Positions 1-30,567 of a DNA stretch of 30,567 nucleotides are shown here, piece by piece. The stretch's first letter is position 1, and every line of letters begins with the position of its first letter. The DNA is from a virus. The stretch lies in IMG/VR virus record IMGVR_UViG_3300042894_000571, positions 1-30,567 of that record. The stretch is one strand, 5' to 3'. The notes under the pieces were generated by a model, which was given only the letters and a program-made list of their open reading frames with translations, made no database searches and had not been told where the DNA came from. The position numbers and the translations under genes were made by a program.

Positions 1-127
1 TTTTTTCAATTTATTTTTAAAAATAATTACAAACGCATTTAAAGGCTGTTTAACAAACGATAAAATATAAACTATATCAATATACCAAAAATACATTATC
101 ATTCTTTAAAACAACTAAAAAGGCTAT
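1..127. repeat. Exact terminal direct repeat (circle overlap), left copy
   Basis: Bases 1-127 are identical to 30441-30567. An exact end-to-end repeat of 127 bases is what a de Bruijn assembler leaves when it closes a circular or circularly permuted genome at a k-mer of 127, so it is more likely an assembly overlap than a biological terminal repeat. Unique genome length is then about 30,440 bp. The stretch is AT-rich, noncoding up to base 123, and joins the lysis genes to the early control region. Confidence 0.9.
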
Positions 128-6026: not shown

Positions 6027-6997
6027 ACGTTATAATATGTGTTAATGTTTGATTCTATTCCTGTTCTATTTGATGTTCCTACAAATGATATTACTTCTGT
6101 AATATAACCATTCATAAAAACATTTATTGAATATTGTCCTAATCTTATTATTATGTTATTACCTGTCATAGGTGCTTGTACCGTAGTTGGTGTAAGTAAA
6201 CCTCCATTAGCGTAAGCATTTACAACAGACGAACCGCATATTAATTCATATAATCTAGGTTGATTTGCTACATTTCCATTACTCCAAATAGTAACGTTTC
6301 TATATGCTATGTTAGCCGCTTGAGGCAACCAAAATAAATTTGTGTTTACAGTATCACCCATAGATAATATTGCATTGTTGGTAGTAGCTAATAAAGAATT
6401 TCCAAGTGCATAACTAGATACATTGTTTAAAGGTACAGAAGCGTCAGCTAAAGTCAATCTTTGACTACTAGCACTTGTAAACCTTACCGCTACTTTACCG
6501 CCTGATGTTTGTAAATTTCCTAATTCTACTAACCTTGGTTGATTTCCTGCTGCTGTTTGTGTTACGTTTTTACCATTACCGCTTTGGTCATACCACGTAA
6601 CCACAAGTATATCTTGATTTGTATTTACACCATCAGGATTAGTATATCCATTTACAATAGAAGCACAAAACTGTCCTAAATTAGTAGCTGTTGTTGATGC
6701 TCCTGATGCATAAGTTATAGGGCTATCTAATCCTATTGTATAAAATGAATTAAAAGAAACGTTTACCTCTGTTGTTGTTGCACTTGGTGTTGTTGTTGTT
6801 CTTCTTACCCTTAAACAAAAGCCTGTATAAGCACTCCTTAATTTTCGTAAAGAATAAGCGTGATGTGCTGATGGATATAAATCTAAAATATAAGAAAAAT
6901 TACTCCAAACAAGATTGTTACCAAGGTAAACCGAACTGATTTGATTTGTACCAAACTTTATATCTGTTAAACTATTTAATCCTAGTGCTATACTCAT
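6020..6997 (-). CDS. Receptor-binding tail protein with arabinofuranosidase-B/lectin-like domain
   Basis: A 325-residue fibre or tip protein. A short N-terminal attachment segment (residues 1-35, MSIALGLNSLTDIKFG) is followed by AYSLRKLRSAYTGFCLRVRR. That resembles the start of the alpha-L-arabinofuranosidase B catalytic/lectin domain found on many Bacteroidota phage tail proteins. WYDQSGNGKNVTQ and QPRLVELG then match the same fold, and the C-terminal half resembles a jelly-roll lectin. It probably binds or trims host surface glycan. It overlaps the preceding fibre gene by four bases (ATGA) and the following 55-residue gene by seven, so the fibre genes form a coupled group. Confidence 0.7.
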   Translation of the reverse strand: MSIALGLNSLTDIKFGTNQISSVYLGNNLVWSNFSYILDLYPSAHHAYSLRKLRSAYTGFCLRVRRTTTTPSATTTEVNVSFNSFYTIGLDSPITYASGASTTATNLGQFCASIVNGYTNPDGVNTNQDILVVTWYDQSGNGKNVTQTAAGNQPRLVELGNLQTSGGKVAVRFTSASSQRLTLADASVPLNNVSSYALGNSLLATTNNAILSMGDTVNTNLFWLPQAANIAYRNVTIWSNGNVANQPRLYELICGSSVVNAYANGGLLTPTTVQAPMTGNNIIIRLGQYSINVFMNGYITEVISFVGTSNRTGIESNINTYYNVW

Positions 6998-8253
6998 ACT
7001 ATAAAATAAAGTGTTGTAGCATCTTTTGTTCCAATAGCAGCATATTCAGCAGCTGTTACCGTTGTTATTGTATTTGTTGTGTATGTTGTAGCTACGTTCT
7101 TTGATATTTTACCTGCAATATCAGTAGCTAATCCGCTGTATTGAGTATTTGTAGCATTGTCTCCTGTATTGCTTCCGCTTAAAGTACTGATACCTAATTT
7201 AGAACGTATTAAAGTAGCTGTTAATTGTTTGTTTTTCCAAAGGTCTGTACTGCTTTCGTATTGTAAAAAATCCTCATTCGCTAAAGTATTATCTATATAA
7301 ACATTGTGAAGCTCGTCTAATTCCCAACCGTTCATTACTTTTACGTAAATCTTACCTTGTATTGCGTGTGCGTATTCTACGTAACCAATAATTACAATAT
7401 GTCCTGTTAATCCCGTTGGTTTAATGTTTGTTAGTCTTCCCGCAGTTGTAGGTGATAAATATAAAACGTCACCATCTACCCAAGTTTCACCTTGTAAAGA
7501 TCCCGTTGTATTTATATCCTCAATTTGACCCATTGTGATAATGAATCCTTCTTGATTTGTAGCAATAGTTTCAGTTACTAATCCAATTGTGTCAGCTGAA
7601 TTAGCATCGTTATTACCTTGTGCTAATTGAACTGCTAATTTTTGACCTTGTGCTCCGCTTATTCTTACCGCTTGATAATTAGCTTTTGTTAGTGTTGTGT
7701 TCGGTGTAACTTTATTAACAACCCTTGCTACTAAATCAACTCCATTTTTTAAAACAACAGTACCGCCTTTTAATGTAGTTTCTGAACTTCCTAAATTATC
7801 ATTCCATTTTGTTGTTCCTACTGTTGGAGTTCCTGTTGGTGTTATATCTAAAGTAACTTGACCAGCTTTTAATTCAAATTCCCCTAAATCAACATTTGTA
7901 GTTGCACCTGTGTAAGGAACAAATCCTGTTACTGATGGAATTGTAGGCTTGTTTAATATTTGTGCATCGCCACTTGTAGCATTCCAATCAGCGTTTACGT
8001 TTACCTCAGCACCTGATGCTATTCCTGCAAGTTTGTTTTTTTCGGTAGTTGTATAGTCTTCAGTGCTTAATCCTTTACCTGTTACTTTATCTACTTTTAA
8101 AGCATCTTGACTGTTTACATAGGCTGTTGTAGCTAATCCATCTATTAACTTTGCTACTGTTACCTTTTTAGTTGTTGATTGATTTACAATAGGTAATACA
8201 TCGCCTGTATCTAATGTTGTGACTAAATCTAATTCACTTATTTTCTTATCCAT
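6994..8253 (-). CDS. Tail fibre protein
   Basis: A 419-residue fibre-like protein. The N-terminus MDKKISELDLVTTLDTGDVLP is a typical virion-attachment sequence of Bacteroidota phage fibres. Residues about 55-105 hold the common fibre repeat motif YTTTEKNKLAGIASGAEVN then LNKPTIPS. The middle domain (about 160-310) is beta-rich and contains EGFIITMGQIEDINT and a WVDGDVLYLSP turn, seen in many phage fibre/spike modules. The tail has SGSNTGDNATNTQYSGLA and an end ATTLYFIV. It is flanked by overlapping small and receptor-binding genes. The charge-poor Thr/Asn/Gly-rich composition supports a trimeric fibre. Confidence 0.75.
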   Translation of the reverse strand: MDKKISELDLVTTLDTGDVLPIVNQSTTKKVTVAKLIDGLATTAYVNSQDALKVDKVTGKGLSTEDYTTTEKNKLAGIASGAEVNVNADWNATSGDAQILNKPTIPSVTGFVPYTGATTNVDLGEFELKAGQVTLDITPTGTPTVGTTKWNDNLGSSETTLKGGTVVLKNGVDLVARVVNKVTPNTTLTKANYQAVRISGAQGQKLAVQLAQGNNDANSADTIGLVTETIATNQEGFIITMGQIEDINTTGSLQGETWVDGDVLYLSPTTAGRLTNIKPTGLTGHIVIIGYVEYAHAIQGKIYVKVMNGWELDELHNVYIDNTLANEDFLQYESSTDLWKNKQLTATLIRSKLGISTLSGSNTGDNATNTQYSGLATDIAGKISKNVATTYTTNTITTVTAAEYAAIGTKDATTLYFIV

Positions 8254-9152: not shown

Positions 9153-11027
9153 TTATCCTATCGATGCACTACTAACTATGTTCCTATCTAATCCTTGCTG
9201 TGTTGTTACGTCATTAGCTACTACGTAAGCCTTGATAGGCTGTTGTCCTTGTTGTGCTATTGTTTCAGCTATTGCGTTTGTTTTAGATGCTCCTACAACG
9301 TTTATTGATGGCTGTGCTGATGCAGGTGTAGATATTGCACCACCGCCACCTCCGCCTGATGCACCTCCACCGCCTCCTGCATTGATAGAACTTGCTGAAC
9401 CTATACCTGCTGCTAATATCGAAGCTATTGATGTTGCTGCACCTATTTTAGTGGCTACTATAGAAGTAGCAGCTATTTTAAGATTTGCTGCATAAGCAGG
9501 GTTTGGAACACCTGGCCCTAAAAAAGGTGGGTTTATTGGTGTTGGTGCAGCCGATGCTTTTGCTAATCCTATTGCTTTTGCTGCTCCTGTAACTACATCA
9601 GCAATAGCTAATCCTTTTTGTACCGCTAATATTCCTAATGCAACCGCTTTATTCTTACCTGCAAATTGTTGTAATATATTTAGACTTGTGTCTAATGCAC
9701 TTCTTTTTGCATCTTTTACCGCTTGTTCGGCTGCTAATTCTCTATCTGTTAATTCTTTTGTTGATGCTAATTTTTCTTCATAAATAGCATATTCAGCATC
9801 TGCCTGACTAATTAAAAAGTTATTTGTCAATTCAGAAGTATCTAAATTATTTGCTTCTAAAACTGATTTCTTTTCGTTGTATTCCCTTAATTCTTTTTGT
9901 GCAGGTGTTTCTTTTGCTTTTGCTATTTCGTCTAATATAGCCATTGCAGTTGTAGCAGACTGCATTTCATTAGCTAACCTTTTTTGTTCTTCTTCACTAA
10001 TTTCTTCATTAGTTTCTTTAACAGTTTTTACTTCCGCTTTTTTATTCTCTTTTTTAGATTTTAAACGATCGTCATCTATTTTTTTAAGTTTTCGATTTAA
10101 CTCTAATGCATATGCTTTTTGATTTGCTCCATCTTCCTCAACTAATTTTAAATATTCATTTTTAGCAGCGATTTTCTGCTTTGTATATTCATCTAATTGA
10201 CTTCCGTGTTCTTTTAAATATTGCTCATTATTTTTTAATGATTTAGCTGCTGCTGCTGAAAGTTTATTAACTTCTCTTTCTGCTTCAGATGTCGCACCTA
10301 TAAAATCAGTTATTGCGTGAACAACATACATAACACCATCTCCAACTTTTGACAATGCAGGTATTACTCTTAAAATAGTATCCTTTATAGTACTGAAATT
10401 TGCTATTAACATTCCAACCGCTACAACTAAAGCACCTATTCCCGTAGAAATAATTGCTCCTCTTAATAATTTTAAACCCGTAGTAGTAGCTGCATTTACA
10501 TAAGTGTAAGCAGTTTGATAAATAGTTAAAGCTTGTTGTGCAAGTGATGTATTTTTAATTACAGTAGTTAATATTTTAAATTGATCTACACTTTCCCCAA
10601 CCGCTTGTAAACCGCTTGAAATAGCCATTGCAGATTGAACTTTTAAAATAGCTTGTTCTACTTCTTTGCTCTCTCCGCCTAATGTTCCCATTACACCTGT
10701 AACCGCAGAAAATCCTCCTGCAACTCCACTTAAAGCCCCGCTTAATGCTTTAAACTTAGCATCAGGATTAAAGGCATCAGTTAAGGCTTTTGCATCTCCA
10801 ATTCTATCAGTTAATTCAGCAGCCTTTTTAGCAGCATTAACTGCCTCTTTTGATGTTGCTCCAAACTTATCTGATAAAATTGCAACCTCTTGTTGTGCTT
10901 GTCTTAATTGACCTTTTAAACTTGTTATTGATTTATCTGTGTTTTCAATAGCATTTCCAAATTTATTAACACTGTTTTCTGCCTGACTAGCATCAACTTT
11001 TATTTTAACCTCTATATCCTGTGCCAT
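9153..11027 (-). CDS. Tail tape measure protein
   Basis: A 624-residue protein. The start MAQDIEVKIKVDASQAENSVNKFG is a typical tape-measure N-terminus. Long helical Ala/Lys/Glu-rich stretches follow, with a central hydrophobic region (about residues 180-250, including IISTGIGALVVAVGMLIANF), a strongly coiled-coil segment (about 255-440) and a Gly/Ser/Ala-rich C-terminus containing GGGGGASGGGGGGA. It sets tail length and helps DNA ejection across the membrane. With the usual 1.5 Angstrom per residue rule the tail would be roughly 90 nm, which is an estimate only. It is the longest helical ORF in the tail block, as expected. Confidence 0.85.
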   Translation of the reverse strand: MAQDIEVKIKVDASQAENSVNKFGNAIENTDKSITSLKGQLRQAQQEVAILSDKFGATSKEAVNAAKKAAELTDRIGDAKALTDAFNPDAKFKALSGALSGVAGGFSAVTGVMGTLGGESKEVEQAILKVQSAMAISSGLQAVGESVDQFKILTTVIKNTSLAQQALTIYQTAYTYVNAATTTGLKLLRGAIISTGIGALVVAVGMLIANFSTIKDTILRVIPALSKVGDGVMYVVHAITDFIGATSEAEREVNKLSAAAAKSLKNNEQYLKEHGSQLDEYTKQKIAAKNEYLKLVEEDGANQKAYALELNRKLKKIDDDRLKSKKENKKAEVKTVKETNEEISEEEQKRLANEMQSATTAMAILDEIAKAKETPAQKELREYNEKKSVLEANNLDTSELTNNFLISQADAEYAIYEEKLASTKELTDRELAAEQAVKDAKRSALDTSLNILQQFAGKNKAVALGILAVQKGLAIADVVTGAAKAIGLAKASAAPTPINPPFLGPGVPNPAYAANLKIAATSIVATKIGAATSIASILAAGIGSASSINAGGGGGASGGGGGGAISTPASAQPSINVVGASKTNAIAETIAQQGQQPIKAYVVANDVTTQQGLDRNIVSSASIG

Positions 11028-11164: not shown

Positions 11165-13708
11165 TTAGTCTTTTATTAATCTTACTGAGAAACCGTATTT
11201 CTTATTGTAGTTGCCTCTGGAGGCATTGCCGTTAGCGTAACTTAGGGTGCGGAACCAGGCGTAAGTAGTATCGGACTCTGACGAACCCCACCAGAACCCG
11301 TAGCCGCCAATGTCGCCGAACGTCCCATTGTAGTCGCGACCCCCTCCCGGAAGACCTGTAAAACCACTCTCATTAGTAGCATTTGTATTAGGGTTTATCC
11401 AAAGCGACGTGCCTGTTGATTTCATTTTGCCTCCTGCATTTGTTCCTAAATAGGTTATTAAAGTGCTCCATTCCGCATCTGTTGGAATGTGATAACCTAA
11501 TGGAGCTAATCCTCTACTATTATTTACTGCATACCAATTATAAAGTTTACCGTAAACAACCCCGTTAGCTGTATTGTTTGCATAACGGCACCAAGCCCCT
11601 GTTGTTAAGGCTGCCCAAGCTGTTGGGTCTGTAACTTCTGGAATAGGTGTACCATCTCTATACGTTTCAACATCAAGGTTTCTATCAGTCCAAAGTTGTG
11701 TTCCTATAAGAACGTCTGTCGATGGCTCTACTACTCTCTGGTCTGTTAGCAATTCAAACTGTGCAACTCCGCTAGTTAAATCTGTTGTCATTGTATTAAT
11801 CAAATACTTTGTGTCTCTTATTAGTATCGTATCATTCAATTTAAGCGTAGTTAATATACTTGTTGGTAGTATAGCACTAATTTTAGTTAATCGTGCCTTA
11901 AAATTAAATATATTGGCAAAGTACTGTGAATAGTATGTTTGATATAAACCGTTGTTTACTATTTCATTTGTTAGTGTACTTTGTTGCTCATTGAAATTTA
12001 ATCCGTATGTTTCTGTTCCTATTAATGTTTCTTGTCCGAATGATTTGTATGTATTGTATTCTATTCCGTTTCCTGTTAGTGAAGTTGAAAACCAAAATCC
12101 TATTCCTGTAGTTACAGTTAATGCAGTAGGATTGTAATCGTATAAAATAACTGGTTTAGGAATGTATCTTTGTAAATCTGTTTTTAAAGCATATCCAACT
12201 TGTAAAACATTATTTGTCCATAGATTTTGAAAGTTTAAATTTTCAAATGGTAGTTTAATAGAATATTCTTCTCCCTCGGCAGGTGGTGTATTTGAATGAT
12301 GCAAAGAACCATATTCAATACCATTAGTAGAATTAAAACCTACATTAATTATTGATTCGCTTTTCTCATAATCAAAGTTTATTTTTTTATGGGTCTTTAC
12401 TCTGTTTAATGTTTTTTTATCTTGTATTACATATTTTGTAATATCAATATCAGAACCTCCTTCATAATAATTATCAATAGTTTTTACGGTGTAATTTATT
12501 CCATCATTTGAATAACAAGTTAAATTGAACATTTTTAAAAGTCCACTAAAGAAGTCTTCTATTTTAATTTCTGGCATATAAGAACTAACTGATATATTCC
12601 CAGATAGTGTTTGAGGGTCCATTGTAGCTGATTTTGTATATCCAGAAATATATGTTCCCATATCTATTTTAAATACAAATTCAAATGTTTCGGTTGTTTC
12701 TATATTAAATGAATGTTTGTTTTGATCTGCATCTGTTCTAATTACATAAGAACTTGTGCCTCCATCACTATCTATAAATGTATCAATTAAATCATCGTTT
12801 AAATATCTATTAATTTTATAAGGCACTGATGTATATCCAGCTTGTGGTGTAATAGTTATTTTAGTTCTTCCTCCATTTGCTCTTATAAAATAATTATCCG
12901 TTAGGTTTACAGTTACTCCAGGTAAATCTTCTAAATTTCCTTTTGTACTTAAATCAATTTTTTGTTTTAAATTTGTTGTAAAAGTGCTTGAATTTTGCAA
13001 CCATAAATAAGCATTTAAAAATCTTGGGTCAGTTAAAAATGTGCTCGGCTCTGAGGTTGTTCCATCAAAGTTAATTCCGAACCTTTGCTCAATCATATTA
13101 AAAACCGCTCTCAATCTTAAAGCGGGAAACAATTCGTTGTATCTTATCGGTGTTTCTTCAAAATTTATATTCCATTCACCACTTCCAAAAGTCCAATAAT
13201 GGTCAGAAGTAATTAAAGGAAACATCACATCTGAACTTGTAGTAGTTGTAGTTACTTTGTCTTTTACAATATCAGCATCGTATTCAAAATCATAAGTAGT
13301 ACTTGTTAAATCTTTTAAATATAAACCCGCAAACGTGTCTTTTAAGTTACCTAACAAACCAATGAAAGTAATTGAATAGTCTTTAGCTTGTCCATCTTCT
13401 ACATTTGCACTTTCTAATTGAATTTTGCCTTTACGAAAAGTAATAGTGTCTATTTCAATATAAGCGTCTGCCTTTACTAATGTACTGAATGGCTCGTCGT
13501 TTGTATTGTCGTACCAATGCCGAAATATTTTATTGTTTTGTTTTGATGCAGGAACAGTAAATGTTTGACTAAAATCAGTAAAGGTTTTACTAATATCGTT
13601 GATGTTTTGTATAGAACTAACTACCGATATTTTTTCGTCGTCAAATAAATCTACTCGGTTGTATTGTCCCGTTTGAACATCTTTTATGTATATGGCTACT
13701 GCTAACAT
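11165..13708 (-). CDS. Tail tip/baseplate protein with C-terminal FISUMP C-type-lectin-like domain
   Basis: An 847-residue tail protein. The N-terminal ~660 residues look like a tail-hub or distal-tail protein of Bacteroidota phages: a start with IYIKDVQTGQYNRVDLFDD, an SKTFTDFSQTFTVPAS segment, and a central beta-rich region. Residues about 667-847 form a FISUMP-type domain, which has the C-type lectin fold. It shows GTQLWTDRNLD, LYNWYAVN, RGLAPLGYHIPTDAEW, GLPGG and a terminal GFSVRLI. The last ~60 residues have GC-rich, NNC-rich codons unlike the rest of the gene and resemble a diversity-generating-retroelement variable region. It would display a receptor-binding surface at the tail tip. 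It directly abuts the preceding tail gene. Confidence 0.75.
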   Translation of the reverse strand: MLAVAIYIKDVQTGQYNRVDLFDDEKISVVSSIQNINDISKTFTDFSQTFTVPASKQNNKIFRHWYDNTNDEPFSTLVKADAYIEIDTITFRKGKIQLESANVEDGQAKDYSITFIGLLGNLKDTFAGLYLKDLTSTTYDFEYDADIVKDKVTTTTTSSDVMFPLITSDHYWTFGSGEWNINFEETPIRYNELFPALRLRAVFNMIEQRFGINFDGTTSEPSTFLTDPRFLNAYLWLQNSSTFTTNLKQKIDLSTKGNLEDLPGVTVNLTDNYFIRANGGRTKITITPQAGYTSVPYKINRYLNDDLIDTFIDSDGGTSSYVIRTDADQNKHSFNIETTETFEFVFKIDMGTYISGYTKSATMDPQTLSGNISVSSYMPEIKIEDFFSGLLKMFNLTCYSNDGINYTVKTIDNYYEGGSDIDITKYVIQDKKTLNRVKTHKKINFDYEKSESIINVGFNSTNGIEYGSLHHSNTPPAEGEEYSIKLPFENLNFQNLWTNNVLQVGYALKTDLQRYIPKPVILYDYNPTALTVTTGIGFWFSTSLTGNGIEYNTYKSFGQETLIGTETYGLNFNEQQSTLTNEIVNNGLYQTYYSQYFANIFNFKARLTKISAILPTSILTTLKLNDTILIRDTKYLINTMTTDLTSGVAQFELLTDQRVVEPSTDVLIGTQLWTDRNLDVETYRDGTPIPEVTDPTAWAALTTGAWCRYANNTANGVVYGKLYNWYAVNNSRGLAPLGYHIPTDAEWSTLITYLGTNAGGKMKSTGTSLWINPNTNATNESGFTGLPGGGRDYNGTFGDIGGYGFWWGSSESDTTYAWFRTLSYANGNASRGNYNKKYGFSVRLIKD
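11168..11356 (-). other. Candidate DGR-type variable region (VR)
   Basis: This segment encodes residues 785-847, from GLPGG to the C-terminal GFSVRLIKD. By hand count 84 of 140 bases in 11211-11350 are G or C, in an otherwise AT-rich genome. About half of the codons from CGC at residue 791 to the end of the variable stretch have the form NNC (GAC, TAC, GGC, TTC, GCC, TCC). That is what adenine mutagenesis of AAC codons produces in diversity-generating retroelements. The ending GFSVR(x)I matches the conserved end of FISUMP-type DGR targets. No template repeat or reverse transcriptase was found in the window. Confidence 0.55.
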
Positions 13709-26965: not shown

Positions 26966-27340
26966 TCAGAATGGTAGCCCAGAATCGTCTACTTCATAAG
27001 GCAAAGCATTGTTAATTGGCTCTTGTGAACTTACTGCTTCTCTGTTTGGCATTTGTTGCTGTGCTGTTAAACTTAATGAATCTACTTTGTCAATTCTCCA
27101 GCCTTGAATGTTTGCATAGTATTTACCCTTCCATTCTGAACCTCGCAAATTTATACTAACTTTTACCAAATCATCTACTTTAAACTTGTCTAGTAGGTTT
27201 GTTTTGTCTTGTGTAAATTCAATTGGTAACGACTGGGGAAATTGTTCGTCGCTCTGTACTACTAATAACCTTTTTTTAAAATCTTTTGCTCCAATAGTTT
27301 CGGTGTCTCCTATTACTATTATTTTTCCGTTTACTTCCAT
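26966..27340 (-). CDS. DUF3127-like single-stranded DNA-binding protein
   Basis: A 124-residue OB-fold-like protein starting MEVNGKIIVIGDTETIGAKD and containing KVDDLVKVSINLRGSEWKGKYY then NIQGWRIDKV. This is the DUF3127 pattern common in Bacteroidota phages and plasmids. The tail ends with DDSGLPF, like the acidic SSB C-terminal tip (DDDIPF) that recruits host repair proteins. So it is very likely the phage SSB. It is one base from the ERF gene, its functional partner. Confidence 0.75.
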   Translation of the reverse strand: MEVNGKIIVIGDTETIGAKDFKKRLLVVQSDEQFPQSLPIEFTQDKTNLLDKFKVDDLVKVSINLRGSEWKGKYYANIQGWRIDKVDSLSLTAQQQMPNREAVSSQEPINNALPYEVDDSGLPF

Positions 27341-27341
27341 C

Positions 27342-27902
27342 TTATTTAGTTAGTGCCTCTTTTACTTCGGCTGTTAATTGATATTTTTTCTCTATTAATG
27401 ATACATCACCACCTCCAGCAATATATTCTTTTGCTTTGGTAAATTCTACACTTCCATTTATTAAATGAAGTTTTTCTTTTGGCTCATTTTTTGGCACATT
27501 TGAATGATTATTAGTTGCGTCTGCATCTGCTGTGTCATCAATCAGTAATAAGTTACCTAGTGCGTATTTCTTTGCGTATGATGATGCAGAACCGTAACGT
27601 TGTGGCATTGCCATTCCTTTCTGTTCTAAATCAATTCCTACTACTGCCTGGCAATCTATTGTTAAACCGCTTTCACAATCACAAATAGTGGCTACACTTG
27701 ACATCATTGGTGGATTAGCATTTACTAATTGCTCATTGATAGTGAAGTAAACCTTGTATTTTTCGTTCATTGGCTTTAGTGCTTCTAATATATCTTCAGC
27801 ACTTCTAAAGTTGTACTTGCCAAATGAGTTATACTTGCTCTTTTTGGCTTTAAATTCAAACTGAATCTTTGATAGTTTTTCGCCTAATTCTAATTTTTCC
27901 AT
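27342..27902 (-). CDS. ERF-family single-strand annealing recombinase
   Basis: A 186-residue protein. KYNFRSAEDILEALK (residues 30-44) and GSASSYAKKYAL then GNLLLIDD (104-123) are the hallmark ERF motifs, and the C-terminus is a short helical tail. ERF anneals complementary strands during phage recombination and circularisation. Paired here with an SSB-like gene and a FEN-type nuclease, as in typical phage recombination modules. The start ATG at 27902 follows the preceding stop by two bases. Confidence 0.9.
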   Translation of the reverse strand: MEKLELGEKLSKIQFEFKAKKSKYNSFGKYNFRSAEDILEALKPMNEKYKVYFTINEQLVNANPPMMSSVATICDCESGLTIDCQAVVGIDLEQKGMAMPQRYGSASSYAKKYALGNLLLIDDTADADATNNHSNVPKNEPKEKLHLINGSVEFTKAKEYIAGGGDVSLIEKKYQLTAEVKEALTK

Positions 27903-28556: not shown

Positions 28557-28586
28557 CAAATATACTACTTTATTTGTTTAACTAAA
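28557..28586 (-). promoter_or_regulatory. Promoter for candidate small RNA (TTTA-N18-TATATTTG)
   Basis: On the minus strand TATATTTG is at 28564-28557 with a near-consensus TTTA at 28586-28583, spacing 18. It overlaps the last codons of the HNH gene. Confidence 0.55.
28572..28585. repeat. 14-bp direct repeat flanking the HNH cassette, right-hand copy in transcription order
   Basis: The 14-mer ATTTGTTTAACTAA (plus strand) at 28572-28585 recurs at 29149-29162, bracketing a 577-base unit with the HNH gene and its leader RNA. In both copies a TATxTTTG promoter element follows closely on the minus strand. Confidence 0.6.
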
Positions 28587-29039
28587 TAAAATTTGATTTC
28601 TTTTTAAAATAGCATCTTCAATTTTTTTAAATGTTCCAAATGTTTTTTTTATTCCATCAATTCTCATTCTAACAATATATGAAGAATTATTTTTATAAAT
28701 ATTAAAATGTCCAGATTTAGATGTTTTATCTTTATATGAATTTTGTCTTTGTGTGATTAATTGTAGATTTTCTAATTTATTATTTTTTTTATCATTATCA
28801 ATATGGTCAATAACTATATGCCTTCCTTTTAATTCTATATCATTAAAGTTTTCATATACTAATTTATGAATCATTATAGTTTTAATTTTATTATTTTTAC
28901 ATAAATTAACGTGTTTATATCCACTGTTACAAAAACCATATTTTAATATTTTTGGTTTATTTTTAAAACTAATTACATTTCCATAATTGCTAATTTGGTA
29001 ATCACCATCATAATTTTTAACATCAATATATATTTCCAT
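28578..29039 (-). CDS. NUMOD4-HNH homing endonuclease
   Basis: A 153-residue nuclease. The N-terminal NUMOD4 part is YDGDYQISNYGNVISF (residues 10-25). The HNH part follows, with IHKLVYENF and VIDHIDNDKKNNKLENLQL (His79, Asn86/Asn91), and the C-terminal AP2-like part is YIVRMRIDGIKKTFGTFKK (about 121-139). It cuts DNA at a specific site to spread itself. An upstream TTG at 29060 would add seven residues but lies in a hairpin; the ATG at 29039 follows the terminator T-run immediately. The gene is visibly more AT-rich than its neighbours and sits between 14-bp direct repeats, as expected for a mobile insertion. Confidence 0.9.
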   Translation of the reverse strand: MEIYIDVKNYDGDYQISNYGNVISFKNKPKILKYGFCNSGYKHVNLCKNNKIKTIMIHKLVYENFNDIELKGRHIVIDHIDNDKKNNKLENLQLITQRQNSYKDKTSKSGHFNIYKNNSSYIVRMRIDGIKKTFGTFKKIEDAILKRNQILFS

Positions 29040-29043
29040 AAAT

Positions 29044-29086
29044 AAAAACCCACATATCAAAAGGTCGTCGTCTTTATCAATGTGGG
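29044..29086 (-). terminator. Terminator hairpin directly before the HNH start
   Basis: Minus-strand CCCACAT pairs with ATGTGGG, with an inner AAAG/CTTT and a GACGACGAC loop region, then five T residues. The HNH ATG (29039) begins 4 bases after the T-run, so the hairpin may attenuate HNH expression. Its loop can pair with GTCGTCG at 29112-29118. Confidence 0.75.
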
Positions 29087-30440: not shown

Positions 30441-30567
30441 TTTTTTCAATTTATTTTTAAAAATAATTACAAACGCATTTAAAGGCTGTTTAACAAACGA
30501 TAAAATATAAACTATATCAATATACCAAAAATACATTATCATTCTTTAAAACAACTAAAAAGGCTAT
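30441..30567. repeat. Exact terminal direct repeat (circle overlap), right copy
   Basis: Identical to bases 1-127. Supports circular closure of the contig. Confidence 0.9.

Follow-up and report, generated by a model that had tools for sequence, protein, structure and literature searches.

An orphan variable region on a phage tail protein suggests rewriting by a bacterial diversity-generating retroelement that the phage itself lacks

Diversity-generating retroelements (DGRs) are usually studied as self-contained cassettes and are located via their reverse transcriptase (RT). The BPP-1-type phage DGR (mtd-avd-TR-brt) resembles the locus described here in that variation is restricted to adenines and affects a C-type-lectin domain at the C-terminus of a phage tail protein, and its gene order resembles that of the bacterial source cassettes reported below (target, avd, template repeat (TR), RT). 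Unlike BPP-1, our phage lacks an RT, Avd and TR as well as an IMH-like end and a hairpin. Chromosomal FISUMP DGRs of Bacteroidota (L239, L178 and, in a Chryseobacterium MAG, L238) have the same framework of the variable region (VR), the same 5′ limit and the same PF09603 domain, but they diversify bacterial proteins, which have an IMH-like 3′ end (the start of the L239 target is lipoprotein-like), whereas our VR lies on a tail protein and ends differently. VRs without an adjacent RT, served by a DGR elsewhere, are also known: trans activity within one genome was described for Thiohalocapsa PB-PSB1 (PMC10907252), and remote VRs for RT-carrying phages (PMC12629997). In both, a VR is accepted if it agrees with the TR at every non-adenine site, and the DGR lies in the same genome; for our phage it would lie in the genome of another organism. 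The nearest structural relative, TvpA, is the variable protein of a Treponema denticola DGR, but it is found on the surface of a spirochaete and is served by a DGR of its own. A literature search, which most subscription papers were beyond the reach of, returned no report of a phage VR with a bacterial template lineage.

The window analysed here is the whole of IMG/VR record IMGVR_UViG_3300042894_000571 (30,567 nt); loci are numbered L and genomes or contigs G. Because it is flanked by a 127-bp direct terminal repeat, the genome is probably complete, with ~30.4 kb of unique sequence. Its features are collected in Table 1. The closest sister phage, L001, is a 25.8-kb IMG/VR contig that is 91–94% identical to the window in nucleotide sequence over most of the genome and has 29 ORFs in common with it (capsid 99%, terminase 98% and core proteins mostly 93–99% amino acid identity). 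A search by 3′ flank for further close sisters returned only L001. Along the tail protein gene, nucleotide identity to L001 ranges from 56 to 96% depending on position, and the products of three tail genes (6994–8253, 9153–11027 and 11165–13708) are only 58%, 46% and 67% identical to their counterparts in the sister. Judging by this strong divergence, the adsorption module of the window phage is recombination-prone. Elsewhere in the genome, a NUMOD4/HNH homing-endonuclease-like gene (28578–29060) lies within an unusually AT-rich stretch.

Table 1. Features of the phage genome, in window coordinates
Feature	Position	Strand	Evidence or remark
Direct terminal repeat	1..127	.	127 nt, identical to 30441..30567
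Phage-type 3′ gene end AAGATTAATAAAAGAC, where bacteria have GCGTTGCCTCAGGGATT (probable IMH) followed by a hairpin	11168..11183	(-)	3′ flank comparison, folding
Orphan DGR variable region, CTTCCGGGAGGG to GGTTTCTCAGT	11184..11353	(-)	NNC-rich; differs from relatives almost exclusively at template-adenine sites
FISUMP / Fib_succ_major domain, residues 666-846	11171..11713	(-)	PF09603 E=3.6e-42
Tail protein gene, 847 aa	11165..13708	(-)	ORF; PHROG and Pfam; alignment with sister phage
DUF3127 protein adjoining ERF	26966..27340	(-)	PF11325 E=2.4e-26
ERF-family single-strand annealing protein	27342..27902	(-)	PF04404 E=1e-30; phrog_155 E=7e-36
Direct terminal repeat, second copy	30441..30567	.	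identical to 1..127

Most of the tail protein (residues 14–656) matches phrog_38559, a PHROG of unknown function, and is followed by the FISUMP domain, for which AlphaFold2 gave a model with a pLDDT of 93.4. Foldseek returned no matches to this model at E ≤ 0.001, and a PDB sequence search with the FISUMP profile found nothing. The best VIA-align match among the chains re-aligned was TvpA (variable protein 1 of Treponema denticola, 2y3c), with Z 8.4 across 144 residues at 16% identity, and many C-type lectins ranked below it. As a Z of 8.4 barely exceeds the usual top score of unrelated models, structural support is moderate; together with the PF09603 assignment and the lectins in the ranking, it suggests that the domain adopts a C-type-lectin fold. 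The tail protein therefore meets, on profile, model and TvpA match, one trait of DGR targets, a C-type-lectin fold with a C-terminal VR.

The sequence-only reading had assigned a DGR footprint to the C-terminal 63 codons of the tail protein, at 11168–11356 on the minus strand. The position is correct, 27 of the 63 codons are NNC, and the GC count given for the segment, 84/140, is exact: 11210–11349 is the most GC-rich 140-nt stretch of a genome with a GC content of ~0.32, the best stretch elsewhere reaching 72/140 (GC over the whole of 11168–11356 is 52.4%). The footprint itself runs from 11353 to ~11184, but the final ~6 codons (11168–11183) had to be removed from it, being AT-rich phage sequence outside the VR. 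The VR, which has the grammar of a DGR VR, consists of the last ~57 codons of the tail protein. Within the FISUMP domain, GC3 rises from 0.24 in the upstream half to 0.68 in the VR half, and NNC codons increase in frequency from 0.11 to 0.49.

None of the criteria for a DGR cassette (RT, TR near RT, Avd) is met by the window phage, in agreement with the earlier claim that the seemingly complete circle contains neither RT nor TR. A domain search of the window found no RVT_1, and tblastn found no RT or Avd (with the L239 Avd as query), even at E ≤ 10. No second site in the window is compatible with the VR under A→N, the best non-self site having 46 violations over 168 nt, and a repeat search returned just the terminal repeat and chance matches. 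The sister phage L001 has no detectable RT either. Two TR-specific patterns had 0 matches in 2.9 million viral contigs, which also yielded no RT closely related to that of L239; a shorter TR pattern gave, among the matches listed, mostly unrelated loci. Annotated phages contained no TR or VR, and plasmids no TR. Among related viral records, an RT was found only in G038, which is a separate contig (18.6 kb) and carries RT, TR and VR of its own; a weak RVT_1 match in G033 (E 2e-4) fell below the cut-off. Three other viral records deserve mention. IMGVR_UViG_2509601030_000011 (L040/L049) carries a compact FISUMP DGR whose TR shares the reading frame of the RT ORF (413 aa). A jumbo-phage-sized contig of 322,477 bases (L267) contains VR-like FISUMP sequence at three places and gave no match to the RT query used. 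A 121-kb phage contig (L019:9983–11749) encodes three tandem FISUMP domains, of which two resemble VRs in GC and NNC bias.

Viral contigs and bacterial genome contigs yielded 22 and 96 matches, respectively, to a degenerate VR pattern. Among the bacterial matches were DGRs with TR and RT in Flavobacterium sp. CYK-55 (L239), a Flavobacterium MAG (L178), a Bacteroidetes MAG (L181) and a MAG titled Chryseobacterium gleum (L238), the RT of which is cut off by the end of the stored stretch. MAG names are quoted as recorded, some of them being questionable. The L239 cassette consists, in this order, of a FISUMP target, bAvd (PF22296, E=4e-15), the TR and the RT (RVT_1, E=6e-21), an arrangement also carried by L178, and the VR of L239 differs from its own TR at 30 of 67 adenines and at 0 of 101 other sites. 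Complete DGRs of the window VR lineage (FISUMP target-Avd-TR-RT) thus lie in Flavobacterium chromosomes, and the similar TR adjoining an RT that the sequence-only reading had proposed to seek in host genomes exists in host-type genomes (L239/L178; 127/177 identical to the window VR). The nearest TR to the window VR is that of L239, from which it differs at 33/67 adenine and 12/101 non-adenine sites (framework identity 0.90); an exact cognate, matching at all non-adenine sites, was not found. TR patterns in 398 Flavobacterium genomes matched L178 and L239 only, four one-mismatch matches being unrelated, and gave 0 matches in 397 family genomes. No TR with the phage-type 3′ end was found in Flavobacterium genomes, where the single match was a low-GC FISUMP.

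Four Flavobacteriaceae/Flavobacteriia MAGs (G048, G050, G054 and G055; L240, L275, L299–L303, L317, L322) have VR-like FISUMP matches scattered over the genome, ranging in number from several to 15. A DGR RT was detected in none of the four, and in G048, which holds the closest VR (L240), no TR was found either. Either orphan or multi-target VRs occur in chromosomes too, or these VRs belong to DGRs that were not binned; TR/VR repeats that break assemblies are perhaps a reason for MAGs with VRs but without RT or TR.

Four bacterial TRs, found independently of the window, were used to class the VR sites into 78 template-adenine and 90 other sites. Between the window VR and the chromosomal VR L240 (Flavobacteriaceae MAG), 38/78 adenine sites differ, against 1/90 others (p 1e-14), while the upstream flank is only 67% identical. 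Non-adenine third positions are the same at 43 of 44 sites (98%), compared with 46% of third positions just upstream, a pattern that selection at the protein level cannot explain. In framework, the window VR is closer to L240 (identity 0.99) than two VRs from the genome of L240 are to each other (0.92), and FISUMP domains without NNC bias reach only about 0.56–0.77.

The same restriction is seen between phages. An identical VR in a close relative would have told against the earlier reading, but L001 differs from the window at 37/78 adenine sites and 3/90 others; for phage L044 the counts are 39/78 and 2/90. By codon position (1/2/3), the differences between window and L001 number 15/17/8 in the VR and 12/10/28 upstream. 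The VR framework of the two phages is 97% identical and their FISUMP domain 87% in nucleotides; for L001 or L044, the upstream module is 81–87% identical to that of the window, the non-adenine VR sites 97–98% and the adenine sites ~50%. Taken with L240 and the L239 TR, these comparisons show that the window VR meets a second trait of DGR targets, the confinement of differences to template adenines. Because the adenine states of two RT-less sisters are largely independent while the framework is nearly the same, adenine-restricted change, or replacement by DGR-made sequence, postdates the split of window and L001.

Phages L044, L045 and L009 have only the FISUMP domain in common with the window, and their VR framework is of the same Flavobacterium type. 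The 84-kb phage L048, in which there is no RT, has a second framework type: its VR differs from the TR of L238 at 29/70 adenine and 4/98 non-adenine sites, with flanks 54–73% identical to bacterial genes. Unrelated RT-less phages carry DGR-type VRs whose frameworks follow two bacterial TR types. The donor VR was not identified, since no sampled chromosomal VR matched adenine-site states of a phage VR above background. A 47.9-kb contig, L266, with only the FISUMP domain in common with the window, has adenine-site states 0.75 alike and shows third-position drift; the states it has in common with the window imply that some VRs also move from phage to phage as passive sequence.

The ends of the VR differ between phages and bacteria. 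The 5′ limit of phage/bacterium identity is the start of TR/VR homology (GGTCTTCCGGGAGG), and none of the phage VRs examined reaches into the bacterial 5′ flank. On the 3′ side, bacterial VRs continue as GTGCGTTGCCTCAGGGATT or GTTAGGTGCCTCAGGGATT, followed in several cases by an inverted repeat, whereas phage VRs change at GGTTTCTCNGT to AAGATTAATAAAAGAC or similar. A third trait of DGR targets, an IMH at the VR 3′ end with a hairpin, is accordingly not met by the phage VRs; bacterial VRs end in TGCCTCAGGGATT-type sequence, some with a hairpin, and by analogy with BPP-1 we infer that this end is probably the IMH and its hairpin. For BPP-1, the 3′ end and hairpin are listed as conditions for a recipient VR and for efficient homing (PMC3240598), and loss of the inverted repeat strongly lowers homing without abolishing it (PMC12875486, PMC3240598). 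Because the phage VRs are without the bacterial 3′ end, import by recombination within the VR is preferred over canonical retrohoming.

Near-identical phages give a view of shorter timescales. Over positions 2500–6661 of L034, this RT-less contig differs from the likewise RT-less L029/L030 at three nucleotides, all at template-adenine sites of the VR (AAC TAC versus AGC GTC at L034:3480–3483); the chance that three random differences all fall on the 64 template-adenine sites is ~3e-6. This is a possible recent VR change, although a mixed-strain assembly is not excluded. The change is internal, with the adenine sites 3′ of it the same in both, and does not look like a single 3′-anchored retrohoming event. 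Rewriting is not continuous, since the VR is identical in L039/L041/L042/L044, and again in L035/L043, despite scattered differences elsewhere; that it is active at present is an inference.

Taken together, the data suggest that the window VR was rewritten by a bacterial DGR absent from the phage, which borrows the mutation machinery of a host or its products. The sequence-only reading had left open diversification in trans and capture by recombination; the origin outside the phage common to both is supported, but the evidence does not separate them. We consider it probable that 11184–11353, in what is a tailed phage of Flavobacterium type, is an orphan VR made by a bacterial chromosomal DGR and imported by recombination, again after the sister split. 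Canonical retrohoming in trans, in which RT and TR RNA of a host DGR rewrite the phage VR directly, IMH-primed, during infection, would also leave the framework unchanged, restrict differences to adenines and bound the tract by the 5′ extent of the TR. It has precedents in trans-diversification inside one genome (PMC10907252) and in a plasmid-borne BPP-1 DGR, by which a reporter carried by a replicating phage is rewritten (PMC3240598). We nevertheless find it unlikely, as every phage VR examined is without the TGCCTCAGGGATT-type end and hairpin named as recipient conditions in PMC3240598, and as the internal L034/L029 change left the 3′ adenine sites unaltered. Little more can be said for a fossil VR, left by a phage lineage in which a DGR was once present and from which RT and TR have disappeared. 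The absence of RT, Avd and TR, the VRs identical among some near-identical phages and the third-position drift in L266 fit such a relic, but a fossil would drift equally at all sites, and the RT-less syntenic sisters contrast sharply at adenine and other sites while their flanks and genomes differ by 6–13%. It would also need many independent RT losses, as the VR-bearing phages have only the FISUMP domain in common with the window, and no TR of the VR family was found in viral contigs; we give it a low probability.

Exchange of the whole module, in which phages swap the FISUMP domain together with its VR, or acquired the pair a single time from a host, without any rewriting of the VR in the phage, would account for FISUMP modules on unrelated phages, for the VR states common to window and L266 and for the mosaic tail gene. 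Against it, the VR and upstream identities between window and L001/L044 disagree, so that the VR has a history separate from that of the module carrying it, and we regard this explanation as improbable. An origin without any DGR, from ordinary diversifying selection on a lectin surface combined with local codon bias, is effectively refuted: variation is expected on C-type-lectin surfaces and GC-rich patches can be imported, yet neither predicts the near-complete third-position agreement with a chromosomal gene whose flank has diverged, nor the lower framework identity of comparable FISUMP domains without NNC bias, and the adenine-site classes were derived from independent TRs.

Under the preferred reading, import by recombination, a bacterial FISUMP target-Avd-TR-RT DGR would make the sequence by mutagenic reverse transcription of its TR, with errors at template adenines, and the product would enter the FISUMP tail domain of the phage by recombination inside the common VR framework, probably in an infected cell. 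The donor could be cDNA of the TR that carries the mutations, or else a chromosomal VR that had been diversified beforehand. A Flavobacterium host is inferred only, and is consistent with the terminase, for which the best E-values among the matches listed are those of Flavobacterium phages. The annealing protein of the phage meets the criterion of an ERF domain and is a candidate helper, which might insert DGR cDNA or VR DNA of a host into the genome of the phage by annealing; this role is inferred, and from its position the adjoining DUF3127 protein is possibly an SSB-like partner. If import was repeated after the split from L001, the phage would thereby refresh a probable receptor-binding surface, itself inferred, without carrying an RT. 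A broader proposal, that Bacteroidota phages routinely exploit host DGRs through FISUMP landing pads that match a host TR and take up host mutagenic cDNA via a phage annealing protein, independently of an IMH, is possible but for now doubtful.

The locus makes testable the question of whether mutagenic DGR cDNA can integrate without an IMH, via general single-strand annealing. If the template of a phage tail VR lies in bacterial chromosomes, surveys based on RT would miss some of the phages whose host range evolves through DGRs, and bacterial hypermutation would be able to work to the benefit of a parasite of its bearer.
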